A DNA stretch of 64,000 nucleotides, taken from the NCBI RefSeq assembly GCF_900091585.1, contig NZ_FMHT01000003.1, positions 5,351,001 through 5,415,000 of the forward strand. The letters are read 5' to 3'. Below the pieces are notes generated by a model, which saw only the letters and a list, made by a program, of their open reading frames with translations, had not been told where the DNA came from and ran no database searches. Shown here piece after piece: positions 34,681 to 39,114 of the stretch (position 1 is its first letter; each line of letters starts with the position of its first letter). The position numbers and the translations under genes are program-made. This DNA is from Micromonospora nigra (lineage in GTDB: Bacteria; Actinomycetota; Actinomycetes; Mycobacteriales; Micromonosporaceae).

Positions 34681-34685
34681 TCCTC

Positions 34686-34726
34686 GGTGCCCGGGTCCTC
34701 GCGAGCGACGCGGGGACCCGGGCACC
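34686..34726 (+). terminator. Strong terminator after pheT
   Basis: An 18-bp stem with a single wobble pair: arms at 34686-34703 and 34709-34726, loop AGCGA. Closes the pheST unit and marks the left edge of the atypical two-gene cassette. Confidence 0.85.
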
Positions 34727-34832
34727 GGTCGGCGTTCTAGGTGCTGGAGCTGTCGACGACGTTCGCCGGATGGTAGGCATGAGCTGTTGTCGGCATTCGT
34801 ACAAGGGAAGCTGCCGCGGGTCGGCGAGTGCA

Positions 34833-34838
34833 TAGAGT
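34833..34838 (+). promoter_or_regulatory. Possible -10 box for the 3-TM/STAND cassette
   Basis: TAGAGT fits TANNNT and would start transcription near 34845, about 24 nt before the first gene, whose ribosome binding site is GAGAGG (34858-34863). CTGCCG about 16 bp upstream is a weak -35. Suggests the cassette has its own promoter. Confidence 0.4.
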
Positions 34839-34868
34839 CCTCCGACAGTCGCAGGACGAGAGGCACTC

Positions 34869-35552
34869 ATGTCGGATTCCCCTTCTGAGCAACTCCTGAC
34901 GTCGGTGCAGGACGCGGTGATCCAGGCCTACTACCCGGATCGGGTCCGGGCTGCGGCCGGGGCCCGAACTCGGGCACAGGCGGCCCAGTCCGTGGTGACG
35001 GTGTTCGCTGGGGCGTTGGTGGCGACGTTCACACTGACTTCGCTGGCCACCACCGCGACGGCGACGCGGATCGCCGCCTGTGCCGCGGTGGCGTTGTGGC
35101 TCGGCGCCGCGACCCTCTACGTCCGGGCAATCGCCACGGTCGTACCGCCACCGCCGACGGCAGCACGGCAGGCGCGCAACGCCCAGACGCTGATTGAGGA
35201 GGTTCTCAAGAGAGGAGATGCGGAGGCGCGGCAGGTTGACCGGCGACAGTCGGTGGCGAACGGGCTGTCGGTCCTCGCGCTCGCGGCGACCTTGCTGACC
35301 TTCAGCCTCGCGCTGTTCGTCGAACACCCGGACAAGTCGCGCCGGGGTGTCCTCATTCTCAAGTCGGACGCGCGGGTGAGCCTCGCTGCCCTGTGTGGGG
35401 CGGAGGTGAGCAGGGTCGAAGGCGAGATCGACGTGCTGTCGGTACGGAGTCAGTTCGTTGCGGTCACATTGTTCAGCTGCGGTGACCGCCGCGATGTCAA
35501 GGTGCGCATTCCGAGGAACTCGGTGTCGGTACTGCTTACGAAGGAGAGCTGA
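34869..35552 (+). CDS. Three-helix membrane protein, partner of the STAND NTPase
   Basis: 227 aa, no family recognised with certainty. Residues 1-39 are a soluble helical segment. TM1 is about 40-60 (SVVTVFAGALVATFTLTSLA), TM2 about 67-92 (IAACAAVALWLGAATLYVRA), then PPPP and a charged helix (98-128). TM3 is about 129-151 (GLSVLALAATLLTFSLALFV), and a 75-residue C-terminal domain with two cysteines (AALCGAE, LFSCGD) follows. Two closely spaced TMs with a flanking helix recall SLATT-type effectors, but that is only topological. ATG with GAGAGG. The next gene starts 3 nt after the stop and has its Shine-Dalgarno (AAGGAGA, 35541-35547) inside this gene, so the two are translationally coupled. 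Codon use is looser than in the flanking genes. Confidence 0.75.
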   Translation: MSDSPSEQLLTSVQDAVIQAYYPDRVRAAAGARTRAQAAQSVVTVFAGALVATFTLTSLATTATATRIAACAAVALWLGAATLYVRAIATVVPPPPTAARQARNAQTLIEEVLKRGDAEARQVDRRQSVANGLSVLALAATLLTFSLALFVEHPDKSRRGVLILKSDARVSLAALCGAEVSRVEGEIDVLSVRSQFVAVTLFSCGDRRDVKVRIPRNSVSVLLTKES

Positions 35553-35555
35553 GCT

Positions 35556-38500
35556 GTGACCCTTGGCAGCGATCCCACCCTGCTCATTGTCCGGGGTGCA
35601 CCCTCGGTGGCATCCGCTGTCGGTGAGCTGGCGACTTCGTGTCTGGCAGCCGTCGCCAGGCTCCACCGGGCAGGCGGGGCGCTGGACGCCGTAATCCTCA
35701 TCGGCAACCTGACGATGTCAGCGGACTTCAGCGAGTACGCCACGGTGTCTGAGCTGGTAGATCGGATCCTGACCGAGTGCTGTAACGCTCCGGTGCCCAC
35801 GGAACTGCCTGCGGTGCTGGCTGTGCCCGGGCCCGGAGACCGACTGCCGATGCCTTCCGCGCTGGTGACCGTGCGATCCCTCACCGACCTTTGGCCCATG
35901 GTACGGGACAGCTTCTGGAACGACGAGACCCCTGATGTGCGGGAAGCGATCCGGACGGGGTTCCGGCCCTTCATCGAGTGGTACGACGGGTACGCGACAG
36001 AGGCCAGCTGGCGGCCGGGGCTGTTGCCCGGAGAAGGCGGGCTGGTGATCGGCACCGAGGGGCGCAGGCTCGGGCTGGCAACCGTCAACAGCGCCTTTCG
36101 CATGATCGCTTCCGATGCGACGACGGATCTCGCCGAGGTGAGCCAGCGGCAAGTGGAAGCGGCGACTGGAGCATGGGAGGGGCCAGTCGAGGCTGTCGCC
36201 GTCTTTGCGCCCCTGACGGCTGAACTGCCCGAGGTGGTGAGTTCTCCGGTGGTGGCGATCGCCGGGGGCGTCGGTACTGGAGAAGTGGCCGAGTGGTGGG
36301 CTGTCGAATCCGGTGCCCATCTTCTCGTCGCTGACACCGGAGTGAATGGTGCCGTTCGGCTGACCGAGCTCGATGGTCGCGCAGCCGCAGTGGCCCGGCG
36401 TCGTCCGGCTGCGACCTCCACTGTGATGATCGACGAACCGGAGGCGGTCGTTGCCTCGGTGACCTCCGCGACGAGAGATCTGCTTGCCGAGTTGGATCTG
36501 GCCTTGGCCACCGGCCACGCGGTTCTCGTGCTGACTTCTGGAATAGAGAGCGAGTCGAAGGGGGAGTGGTCGAGCCCGTTGGGTAGCGCGGACGACGTCT
36601 TCGAGGCGCTGGTGACACAGCTACCCGCGGATGTCACCGGTGGGCGGGTAGCCCTGGCCACGGTGATGCAACGCCTGCGGCAGACGGATCCCTCGCTGGT
36701 GAGACGCACCATCGCCGGCATGCTCGTCAGCGACGGCTCGATGCTCAACGAAACCGCACTGCGCCTGCTCCTGGCACCGTGGTACCGGGTGTACGACTGC
36801 ACGGGGACGAACATATTCCAGGACCTTTCTATGCGTATGGACATCGATGCCAACATGGTGATCGTTGACGCGTACCGGGATCCGCCCGGCCGGGGCCGAC
36901 CACAACTCGAGGTGGTGGCGATGAATGGCATCGCCCCGGGCAACGCCGCCGCTCCGGTCAGCTTCGACATCGACGACCGGGGGCGCGGGTGGCGGGCCCA
37001 GTGGTTCCGCCAGATGAAGGCGGACGCGATAACACATCCGGTGGTGTTCGCGGCCGGTGCGCTGAGCAGCGGGCACCTGTCGCTCTACCTCGACGCGCTG
37101 ATCTCTGACAGTGACATCAAGTCCCCTTACCCCCGTTTCGTGGTGGCCCCGGGGTCGGATCCGACCGCTCTGTGGAAACTGGCCGGCGGTGGATGTGCCC
37201 ATATCCAGGCAAGCCTCGCCGAGGTAGCTCGGGAGCGGCTGGGGATGACGAGGGAACCAATGCGGCGGGGCCGTCAGCTCCGCGCCCGGATGCGTTCCGT
37301 CCTCGACACCAACGCAGGTGTGCAGCTGGTGTCGACATTGCTGGAAGCGGCACCGCCGGGTGACCCCTTCTACCTGCGTGGTACGGATCCCACCTGGGGT
37401 GACGTCAAGGAGGAGATCCCAGCGACCCTCTCGTCCCTTGGTGCAATGGTCGAACGGGCGGATGCGGGAGGGGCCCGGAAGCCGGTAGTGGTCCTCAACG
37501 ACCGCTCCGGCACCGGCAAGTCGACGACGTTGATGCAGTTCGCGGTTACGCTGCACGCCCGTGGCTTGGCAGTGGGATGGGTGGACAGGGCGACCACCAG
37601 GTCGAGCCATGACGTTCTCAACGAGTGCCTCGAACTGGGCTTGGACGCCGTTCTCATCGACGACGTGGACATCTTCGGTGCGGAAGCGGCACGACTGATG
37701 ACGCGGCTGGGCCAGCGAGGCAACGTCCTCGTGGCCGCCACCATCCGCAGTACCCGGGGCCACCTTCTCGACGGGGTGCCCGGGCTGGTCCGGGTACCAC
37801 CGTTGCGACTGACCGACGACGACCTGAACGCCCTGGTGCACCGACTGGAATCGTTCCGGCAACTTGGCAAGCTCAAGCAGTACAGGCTGCATGACGCACG
37901 GGTGGAGCGGTTGCGTCAGGTCTCTGACCGTGACCTGATGGCGGCGATGGTGGAGGTGATCACCGGCTACCGGTTCGAAGAGCGGGTCAGCAGCGAGTTC
38001 GCTCAGCTCGACGCCCGTGAACGAGACATCTATGCGACGGTGTGCCTGTTCGAGGCCCTGCAGTACGAGGATCGCTCGCTGACCCTGCCGCAGAACGCCC
38101 TACTGCAGATCGCCTCGGACGGGCCACCCGATCCAGGCGTCAACCGCGCCATCGAGAGGCTCGTCTCGGGCCGCAGAATGCTGGTGCGCCGGGAGTCGGG
38201 CCACATCCGCACCCGGCACCGCGTCGTTGCCGAGGCGATGGAGAAGTTCATTCGGGATGACAAGGTCTACTTTCAGGAACTCCTTGAGCGGCTGCTGCTG
38301 TTCTACGTGCAACGCGGCGCTGGCATCACGAACCGTAACGATCCGACGCGGCGGGCCATGGTGGCCCTGATCAATCACCGAGTGATGATCAAGTCCGGAC
38401 TTCCGGTCAAGTCGGTACGGGACATCTACCACCTGCTGCACGACTACCTCAAGGATGACTTCCACTACTGGCTCCAATGCGGCTCGTACGAGCTCGAGCA

Positions 38501-38942
38501 GCGCAACCTCGATCTTGCTGCGACGTTCCTGGAGACCTCCCGCGGATGCGAGGGTGGGCAGAACCACTTCAAGGTCGTCACGACCTGGGCCATGGTTTAC
38601 CTGCGACTGGCTATTCAGAACCCGTCTGACGTGGGCCGGCACGACGAGGCGGTCGACGCGTTCCGGGAGCTTGAGCGGATCGCCTTGCAGGAAGGCGCCC
38701 GATCGCCGCACACGATCGTGACGATCATCAAGGATGGAACCCACTGGCTGCAGCGTGGAACGTTCTTCACGAACGACGAGCGACAGAACACGGCTCGTCG
38801 CATCCTGCGTTGGATTGAGGTTGGGCATCGCCTGTTGGACATGAACGGCGAGTTCCGGGCGGCGGCGAATCGCTGCACCGGCCCCTTGGAGCGGATGGTC
38901 CGAGCGGACGAGGACGAAGAAGACGTCTCGATTCCGCTGTAA
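35556..38942 (+). CDS. STAND-type NTPase with pseudo-calcineurin and pseudo-SIR2 domains (candidate defence sensor)
   Basis: 1128 aa. Residues about 5-290 follow a calcineurin-like phosphoesterase, but each metal motif is changed: RGAP (13-16) for SDLH, GNLT (50-53) for GDLT, PGPGD (91-95) for PGNHD, FAPL (217-220) for HHPL, GGVGT (237-241) for GHxH. Residues about 310-560 follow a SIR2_2 domain (VLTSGIES near 325, FAAGALSSGHLSLYLDAL near 500, RFVVAP), but CTGTN (415-419) and MNG (456-458) replace TTNYD and KLHG. A P-loop follows, DRSGTGKST with Lys655, Walker B LIDDVD (Asp702-703) and sensor-like AATIRSTR; the NTPase looks active. From about 880 it is helical, with RTRHRVVAEAMEKF. GTG start, coupled to the membrane protein. 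A/T-ending codons (ATA, AAT, TTG) are commoner than in neighbours. Overall architecture resembles Avs/DSR anti-phage STAND proteins. Confidence 0.82.
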   Translation: MTLGSDPTLLIVRGAPSVASAVGELATSCLAAVARLHRAGGALDAVILIGNLTMSADFSEYATVSELVDRILTECCNAPVPTELPAVLAVPGPGDRLPMPSALVTVRSLTDLWPMVRDSFWNDETPDVREAIRTGFRPFIEWYDGYATEASWRPGLLPGEGGLVIGTEGRRLGLATVNSAFRMIASDATTDLAEVSQRQVEAATGAWEGPVEAVAVFAPLTAELPEVVSSPVVAIAGGVGTGEVAEWWAVESGAHLLVADTGVNGAVRLTELDGRAAAVARRRPAATSTVMIDEPEAVVASVTSATRDLLAELDLALATGHAVLVLTSGIESESKGEWSSPLGSADDVFEALVTQLPADVTGGRVALATVMQRLRQTDPSLVRRTIAGMLVSDGSMLNETALRLLLAPWYRVYDCTGTNIFQDLSMRMDIDANMVIVDAYRDPPGRGRPQLEVVAMNGIAPGNAAAPVSFDIDDRGRGWRAQWFRQMKADAITHPVVFAAGALSSGHLSLYLDALISDSDIKSPYPRFVVAPGSDPTALWKLAGGGCAHIQASLAEVARERLGMTREPMRRGRQLRARMRSVLDTNAGVQLVSTLLEAAPPGDPFYLRGTDPTWGDVKEEIPATLSSLGAMVERADAGGARKPVVVLNDRSGTGKSTTLMQFAVTLHARGLAVGWVDRATTRSSHDVLNECLELGLDAVLIDDVDIFGAEAARLMTRLGQRGNVLVAATIRSTRGHLLDGVPGLVRVPPLRLTDDDLNALVHRLESFRQLGKLKQYRLHDARVERLRQVSDRDLMAAMVEVITGYRFEERVSSEFAQLDARERDIYATVCLFEALQYEDRSLTLPQNALLQIASDGPPDPGVNRAIERLVSGRRMLVRRESGHIRTRHRVVAEAMEKFIRDDKVYFQELLERLLLFYVQRGAGITNRNDPTRRAMVALINHRVMIKSGLPVKSVRDIYHLLHDYLKDDFHYWLQCGSYELEQRNLDLAATFLETSRGCEGGQNHFKVVTTWAMVYLRLAIQNPSDVGRHDEAVDAFRELERIALQEGARSPHTIVTIIKDGTHWLQRGTFFTNDERQNTARRILRWIEVGHRLLDMNGEFRAAANRCTGPLERMVRADEDEEDVSIPL

Positions 38943-39042
38943 CGAGCGTCGTCAAGCGTGCACAGCGGGATGCCGCGGTTCGCGGTGCCGGTCCGCATGC
39001 GGAGGGTGGGGTAGGAGCGCTTCGACCCTGAGTATTTCCATA

Positions 39043-39106
39043 CAGCATGACGCATGAACTTGCAGCGGCGGCCCGGAGGGGCTAGCCTCACTGCATAGTC
39101 ATGCGG
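39043..39106 (+). promoter_or_regulatory. ArgR operator (ARG boxes) at argC
   Basis: Main box: TGCAT AGTC ATGCG (39092-39105), an inverted repeat resembling actinobacterial ARG boxes, placed over the predicted transcription start. A second set of half-sites, GCATGACGCATG (39045-39056), lies just upstream of the -35. Paired sites flanking a promoter fit arginine-dependent repression by ArgR, which is encoded in this operon. Confidence 0.55.
39060..39088 (+). promoter_or_regulatory. Promoter of the arginine operon
   Basis: TTGCAG (39060-39065), 17-bp spacer, TAGCCT (39083-39088). Transcription would start near 39095, inside the ArgR-box-like palindrome, about 20 nt before argC. Confidence 0.65.
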
Positions 39107-39114
39107 AGGTAGGT

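Follow-up and report, generated by a model that had tools for sequence, protein, structure and literature searches.

A co-inherited gene pair of Micromonospora nigra joins a STAND NTPase with degenerate enzyme folds to a candidate membrane effector

When a STAND NTPase carries enzyme-like domains that have lost catalytic residues, by what means could it still deliver an output? The question is raised by two adjoining genes in a 64,000-nucleotide (nt) stretch (the window; positions 5,351,001 to 5,415,000 of contig NZ_FMHT01000003.1) of the 6.36 Mb genome of Micromonospora nigra. Gene 1 encodes a 227-amino-acid (aa) membrane protein with three predicted transmembrane (TM) segments, and gene 2 encodes a 1128-aa STAND NTPase in which a metallophosphoesterase-like and a SIR2-like domain precede the NTPase domain. 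The answer preferred here, held tentatively and at a little short of an even chance, is that the two genes encode a defence pair: an Avs5-like STAND protein, its own effector domains dead, would act through a membrane effector.

The original prediction, made from the DNA letters of the window, described a three-helix protein of 227 aa followed after 3 nt by a protein of 1128 aa, and both open reading frames (ORFs) are confirmed and conserved in eight homologues. The pair begins at 34869, 128 nt downstream of the start given for the region at that time (34741). The TGA of gene 1 (35550–35552) and the GTG of gene 2 (35556) are 3 nt apart, and a Shine-Dalgarno-like sequence for gene 2, GAAGGAG, does lie inside gene 1 as had been noted. 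The pair is flanked by pheT (end 34680) and argC (start 39115), both backed by Pfam domains, and its GC3 (G+C content at third codon positions) is 0.79–0.82 versus 0.94 for argC in the window. Scans for sigma-70 promoters and terminators and against Rfam gave nothing useful. Both frames are conserved, with 54–76% identity in Micromonospora and 39–44% in Actinoplanes, and the ratio of non-synonymous to synonymous substitution rates (dN/dS) is below 0.5 everywhere, showing purifying selection in all segments. Frames kept at 39–76% identity under such constraint indicate that the gene pair is not a chance arrangement.

The search for homologous gene pairs advised with the original prediction found close STAND homologues in eight distinct genomes (the window genome, G045, G173, G184, G607, G640, G642 and G651), and in all eight the membrane gene stands 2–6 nt before the STAND gene. 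Six of the relatives carry names in the genome collection, five of them belonging to Micromonospora species and the sixth to Actinoplanes; the spacings were read at these six named loci, in the window and at L004 (G045). Seven of the eight pairs lie between pheT and argC, and the Actinoplanes copy (39% identity) is at a non-syntenic locus. Across 21 genome pairs from seven genomes (the Actinoplanes copy, which has no argC beside it, is omitted), the identities of the membrane protein and the STAND protein correlate with r 0.95, whereas the correlation with argC is low, r 0.24 for the STAND protein and r 0.35 for the membrane protein. At locus L024 compared with L004 (the locus of G045), argC is 97% identical, but the STAND protein only 53% and the membrane protein 63%, which implies that the whole pair was replaced at the same site. 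Taken together, the close correlation within the pair, the low correlation with argC and this mismatch indicate that the two genes move together as one unit. The pair is rare: with the host counted, it occurs in 6 of 151 genomes of the genus and in 2 of 394 genomes at the class level, where one distant SIR2 relative was also found. Two further matches were set aside, one in G107 (E 5.6e-4, residues 616–762), which falls within the NTPase region of another P-loop protein, and the other an nSTAND5 protein of G756 (1319-aa frame) whose N-terminus is different.

The NTPase domain of the large protein is the part that can be assigned with most ease. It matches Pfam PF25199 with 105.2 bits against a curated cut-off of 34, and all eight members match this family. 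The intact P-loop, Walker B motif and arginine strand noticed earlier recur in the eight homologues with minor changes (Walker A DRSGTGKST with K655, Walker B LIDDVDIFG, and ATIRSTR), so that GTGKST and either DDVDIFG or DDIDIFG are found in every member. A profile of the eight homologue sequences (A3) was aligned by hhalign with one of four SIR2-nSTAND5-TPR proteins (A5), and residues 315–1044 are homologous to these over 697 columns (99.3%, E 3e-20). Eight weak nSTAND5 matches below cut-off lie elsewhere in the host genome (G000:C3:2439322, 4209950 and 189088 among them).

The original prediction left the N-terminal half of the large protein blank, yet most of its first 600 residues consist of two degenerate enzyme folds. 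Residues 27–103 resemble CpdA-type metallophosphoesterases in comparisons with two sets that overlap, one of three and one of four sequences, picked by type from genomes; against single CpdA-type sequences the hhalign values are 7.0, 69.4 and 27.8%. As controls, 20 column shuffles gave at most 0.7%, three other phosphoesterase sets gave 0.2–2.1%, and the SIR2 segment gave 0.1% against the CpdA sets. None of the eight members has a Pfam phosphoesterase match. The Pfam and hhalign matches together lead to a layout of metallophosphoesterase-like domain, SIR2-like domain, nSTAND5 domain and helical C-terminus. The structural model adds little to this. The AlphaFold model of the STAND protein is poor (mean pLDDT 56; block means of 33–60 for residues 751–1000), and its better part, residues 1011–1110 with block pLDDT 73–89, bears out the helical C-terminus described earlier. 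Foldseek ranked Avs5 first (9jap, E 2.9e-16), with SAMD9 next, another Avs5 third and DSR2 structures after it, a ranking that is local evidence only, given TM scores of 0.14–0.21 (0.17/0.21 for 9jap). With the STAND profile, a search of the PDB matched one Avs5 chain (E 0.096) as well as P-loop proteins, among which a Cfd1 chain scored best (E 2.2e-4); with the single STAND sequence it returned nothing useful. The kinship with defence STAND proteins that was proposed at the outset holds to the extent that the SIR2-bearing kin of this NTPase are defence proteins.

In contrast to the NTPase, whose GKS and DDxD are intact in all eight sequences, both enzyme-like domains depart from their families at key positions. 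In the SIR2-like domain the first glycine of GxG is replaced by threonine, the aspartate of TTNxD by phenylalanine or leucine, and the D/E position (aligned by hhalign) by serine, each in eight of eight, and no member has a Pfam SIR2 match at E values up to 5. In PaAvs5-1, according to the available part of the published study (PMC12931631), N110A, D112A and E202A each abolish immunity. On these grounds the SIR2-like domain is probably dead, which is not certain. The N-terminal domain does not have the metal-ligand set of DxH, GD, GNHD, H and GHxH: the histidine of GNHD is found in none of the eight sequences, the aspartate of GD is retained in five, and DxH and the two late motifs (H and GHxH), which were placed by eye beyond the hhalign match, are found in none. 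The replacement of histidine by asparagine in the HG motif was dropped as a sign of a dead enzyme, since NG is active in Avs5 in what is available of the same study.

The relatives whose SIR2 motifs are intact provide a comparison that bears on the source of the output. Five were collected, L037 of G314 and L039–L042, the latter from plasmids of Acinetobacter sp., Vibrio pectenicida, Psychrobacter sp. and Methylobacterium bullatum, and all five have SIR2_2 and nSTAND5 above the Pfam cut-off. Their surroundings were scanned for same-strand ORFs of at least 60 aa with at least two hydrophobic segments within 1.5 kb. Four had no candidate membrane ORF, the frame found at L039 is antisense to an annotated recombinase, and the same scan recovered the membrane gene at two pair loci used as controls. 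Thus, the membrane gene accompanies the degenerate SIR2 in eight of eight members and the intact SIR2 in none of five. A shift of the effector function from the same chain (in cis) to a partner protein (in trans) is a reasonable inference from this contrast, and it agrees with the earlier suggestion that the effector role has passed to the membrane protein. In favour of that suggestion are the constant and patchy occurrence of the pair, its exchange as a unit and the dead look of the effector region at the N-terminus, whereas the existence of membrane-protein relatives on their own speaks against it. In the same way, no close STAND homologue (0/8) is found without the membrane gene, but the five distant SIR2-nSTAND5 relatives lack it and two membrane-protein relatives have no STAND gene in the stretches read. 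As an observation apart, the SIR2-nSTAND5-TPR proteins (L037 6245–9301; L039–L042) tend to carry a cold-shock-like domain at the end of the chain, found by a profile match and below cut-off in two single proteins, and with it they tend towards a layout close to that of SAMD9.

The mechanism that would follow from the defence-pair reading is a two-gene conflict system, probably anti-phage, built on a STAND protein of the Avs5/SAMD9 type. The large protein would sense an intruder, bind ATP and oligomerise through its intact nSTAND5 domain, while the metallophosphoesterase-like and SIR2-like domains may have decayed to non-catalytic scaffolds. The three-TM partner, translated together with the large protein, would supply the output in trans. 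The activated STAND protein may engage the conserved N-terminal helices and TM1 of the membrane protein, which in turn would permeabilise or depolarise the membrane, or block entry at the membrane.

A number of observations weigh against this reading. The STAND protein has no match in phage or plasmid records, and neither gene turned up when viral contigs were scanned by pattern. No phenotype, including a phage phenotype, is known for the pair. The degenerate members form one clade, and the contrast with the intact relatives counts as one event only. The membrane protein matches no library family at cut-off, and its kinship with SLATT fails and is rejected (Pfam SLATT_1 at E 2.2 in one of eight; hhalign against three SLATT_1 proteins 0.3%). 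In G126 and G028, the 17-kb stretches read hold a relative of the membrane protein and no STAND gene; the frame in G126, of 175 aa, stops early, and the one in G028 follows a 153-aa gene that matches no known family. The flanks, pheT and argC, are housekeeping genes, and the other inserts at the site are mixed, few of them having been tested. Finally, the asparagine of the SIR2 TTN motif is retained in all eight sequences, and the HG position is asparagine in six, histidine in one and neither in one.

With the asparagine kept, and with a natural NG in place of HG that is functional in PaAvs5-1 in the available part of PMC12931631, the SIR2-like domain may retain activity. It would then be an Avs5-type NADase, divergent but working, with the membrane protein serving only to place the STAND protein at sites of phage entry. 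The gathering of PaAvs5-1 at poles and membrane, given in the same part of that study, and the dN/dS of 0.23–0.30 in the SIR2 segment fit this explanation. It is nevertheless unlikely, because three positions are replaced in all eight members, alanine at the last two of which abolishes immunity in PaAvs5-1, and because Pfam recognises a SIR2 domain in none of the eight, versus SIR2_2 in all five intact relatives.

The distribution of constraint was determined as dN/dS by segment over four genome pairs. In the STAND protein it is 0.36–0.47 for the phosphoesterase-like domain, 0.11–0.23 for the NTPase, 0–0.23 for residues 761–900 and 0.14–0.20 for the C-terminus. The fastest parts are the first domain of the STAND protein and the last domain (last third) of the membrane protein, and since no segment exceeds 1, relaxed constraint explains them equally well as a contest with an opponent. 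The C-terminus is the usual sensor in Avs proteins, according to the available part of PMC12931631, and it had been proposed as the sensor here. As the C-terminus is conserved and the fast parts are elsewhere, it may not be the sensor, and that part of the proposal is weakened.

A rather improbable variation on the defence pair gives the degenerate domains a task of their own. The dead metallophosphoesterase and SIR2 domains would serve as an integrated decoy, a lure for phage proteins that act against defence phosphoesterases and NADases or imitate them; tampering would trip the STAND protein and the adjoining membrane effector would fire, so that one chain would be both decoy and switch and the second chain the executioner. 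Abstracts describe DSAD1, a phage-encoded inhibitor of a SIR2 defence protein. Inactive enzyme versions are reported as effectors in bacterial conflict systems, with a decoy role proposed, in the available part of Kaur et al. (PMC7159879), and this is read as support for the decoy version.

The membrane protein offers another candidate for the sensor. Its three hydrophobic segments are present in all eight homologues, and a fourth, in the C-terminal domain, rises above threshold in two. C176 and C204, both in the alpha/beta C-terminal domain, are invariant in all eight pair members. The structure model consists of long helices with mean pLDDT 70 and pTM 0.35, and the C-terminal domain scored better (block pLDDT 83–88 for residues 161–220). 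The TM1–TM2 loop is short and weakly charged, which suggests a topology with N inside and C outside; the C-terminal domain, with 13 K/R in the window protein, does not favour an outside location. If the C-terminal domain is extracytoplasmic, it could be an outside receptor for which the STAND protein is the cytosolic transducer. The loop, the conserved cysteine pair and the fast evolution of the domain fit this explanation, but the topology is only a prediction, the lysines and arginines of the domain do not favour it, the model is weak, and if the enzymes are dead no output step remains. It is accordingly given little credence. A likeness of the model to NINJ1 (Foldseek E 0.09–0.33 for three 9bia chains; 1.8 for NINJ2) was left unused as a weak helical match on a model of pLDDT 70, and a PDB search with the membrane-protein profile gave nothing useful. 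Profile matches in G071, G423 and G466 (E 3e-4 to 4e-4) were dropped because they run antisense to other genes. Membrane-protein relatives without a STAND gene in the stretch read are located at L034 (9279–9922) and L035 (8767–9440); the one at L034 stops early, and after it comes another frame whose C-terminal sequence is similar. Such solo relatives show that the membrane family is wider than the pair, and the function of the solo protein may predate its link with the STAND gene.

The site itself was surveyed at 30 argC loci from 31 genomes. The pair was present at three loci, and at five pheT lies 178–210 nt from argC; twenty more were fetched and two were not followed. Other inserts of 2.0–8.5 kb were found at 17 of the 20 fetched loci, pheT being out of reach at the remaining three, and none of the 17 matches either gene of the pair. 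Read by eye, they are mixed and hold sugar-nucleotide genes, exporters, regulators and secreted proteins. Nine insert proteins from L076, L085 and L086 were scanned with Pfam, six of them also with PADLOC; they include an XRE-type regulator, a pentapeptide protein, HEAT-repeat proteins (one below cut-off) and a regulator of the Crp type, similar in its cNMP-binding part to Pycsar effectors. In Micromonospora the interval from pheT to argC, 34681–39114 in the window and represented also by L043–L092, is thus a site of variable insertions, and a defence island is not proven. STAND proteins in actinomycetes also have regulatory roles, and the housekeeping flanks would suit a regulatory or developmental signalling pair rather than defence, but this explanation deserves as little credence as the outside receptor, in view of the patchy presence, the exchange at a variable locus, the off-composition, the fast-evolving domains and the kinship with defence proteins of the Avs5/DSR type.

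Two neighbourhoods met along the way are recorded for their own sake. At L085 (9178–14156) and L086 (7167–11307), HEAT-repeat proteins occur with small partner genes, at L085 also with the Crp-type regulator, and these modules look like an uncharacterised conflict module. Around the distant pair in Actinoplanes sp. TFC3 (L026 2549–17106) there are a DUF4231 membrane protein, a VWA protein, a CoiA-type nuclease and a RecD-like helicase. The features of the pair are listed in the table.

Table. Features of the gene pair, in coordinates of the window
Feature	Position	Strand	Remarks
Gene 1, membrane protein, 227 aa, ATG start	34869–35552	+	ORF reading
Gene 1 residues 1–60, N-terminal helices and TM1	34869–35048	+	most constrained part, dN/dS 0.04–0.12 in four pairs
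Gene 1 predicted TM1 (~42–60), TM2 (~74–92), TM3 (~133–151)			predicted N-terminal helices before TM1; charged segment 93–132
Gene 1 residues 153–227, C-terminal alpha/beta domain	35325–35549	+	fast evolving, dN/dS 0.34–0.40
Shine-Dalgarno-like GAAGGAG of gene 2, within gene 1	35540–35546	+	9 nt before GTG
Gene 2, STAND NTPase, 1128 aa, GTG start	35556–38942	+	putative pseudo-metallophosphoesterase, putative pseudo-SIR2, nSTAND5, helical C-terminus
Gene 2 residues 27–103, CpdA-type metallophosphoesterase-like	35634–35864	+	hhalign 88.5–89.5%, E ~2e-6; GN/GD and PGxxD replacing GD and GNHD
Gene 2 residues ~315–550, degenerate SIR2-like domain	36498–37205	+	TSG for GxG; TGTN-x-F for TTNxD; NG for HG; S505 for D/E
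Gene 2 residues 606–738, nSTAND_NTPase5	37371–37769	+	Pfam PF25199, E 3.5e-30; K655, D702, D703, R731/R734
Gene 2 residues 901–1128, helical TPR-like C-terminal region	38256–38939	+	alignment and model

If the defence-pair reading is true, a receptor of the Avs5/SAMD9 type whose built-in killer enzymes are dead has moved its output to a separate membrane protein, a step in the evolution of immune systems. Both the cis-to-trans shift of the effector and the occurrence of pseudoenzyme domains in prokaryotic receptors would be testable by single-residue mutants, and the membrane protein would represent a small effector family outside the libraries searched.

The titles and abstract openings listed by the literature search, which covered open PMC papers only, contain no description of the pair, and its place is best seen by comparison with known systems. 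Avs5 (AVAST type 5, SIR2-STAND) shares the order of SIR2-like domain, STAND NTPase and helical repeats, is the top Foldseek match and also includes the NG variant in the available part of PMC12931631. The differences are an extra N-terminal metallophosphoesterase-like domain, the loss of SIR2 key positions (GAGXS and TTNXD are replaced by TSG and GTN/GSN-x-F/L in all eight) and a membrane partner in all eight. By Pfam the NTPase is nSTAND5 rather than nSTAND3 (PF20720; matched in three of eight members, best E 0.056), and the PADLOC Avs5 profile reaches only E 0.055 over 28 residues. The SIR2-nSTAND5-TPR proteins, four of which were aligned, are homologous over residues 315–1044 and belong to the same Pfam NTPase family in five of five, but their SIR2 motifs are intact, they lack a metallophosphoesterase-like part and an adjoining membrane gene, and they tend towards a cold-shock-like C-terminus. 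SAMD9/SAMD9L and bacterial SAMD9 proteins have in common with gene 2 a variant SIR2, a STAND-like NTPase and helical repeats (Foldseek 9zjs, E 6.5e-12). Bacterial members of that family occur in actinomycetes, and its P-loop is defined by GGT/S without lysine, as stated in the available part of PMC5445408. Here, Walker A has the canonical GKS and not GGT/S, and the Pfam scan found no AlbA or kinase domain. For the OB fold there is likewise no Pfam match, and the hhalign alignment with the four SIR2-nSTAND5-TPR proteins ends before their cold-shock-like part. SLATT and DUF4231 proteins are small membrane proteins, predicted effectors beside conflict genes; gene 1 also encodes a small membrane protein, and a DUF4231 gene lies near the Actinoplanes copy, but three TM segments with an alpha/beta tail set it apart. 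STAND/NLR operons with separate pore-forming effectors exist, bacterial gasdermins being an example. No gasdermin or protease is seen here and the partner is a different multi-TM protein, but the arrangement proposed is alike, a STAND sensor with its membrane-damaging part encoded in another gene.

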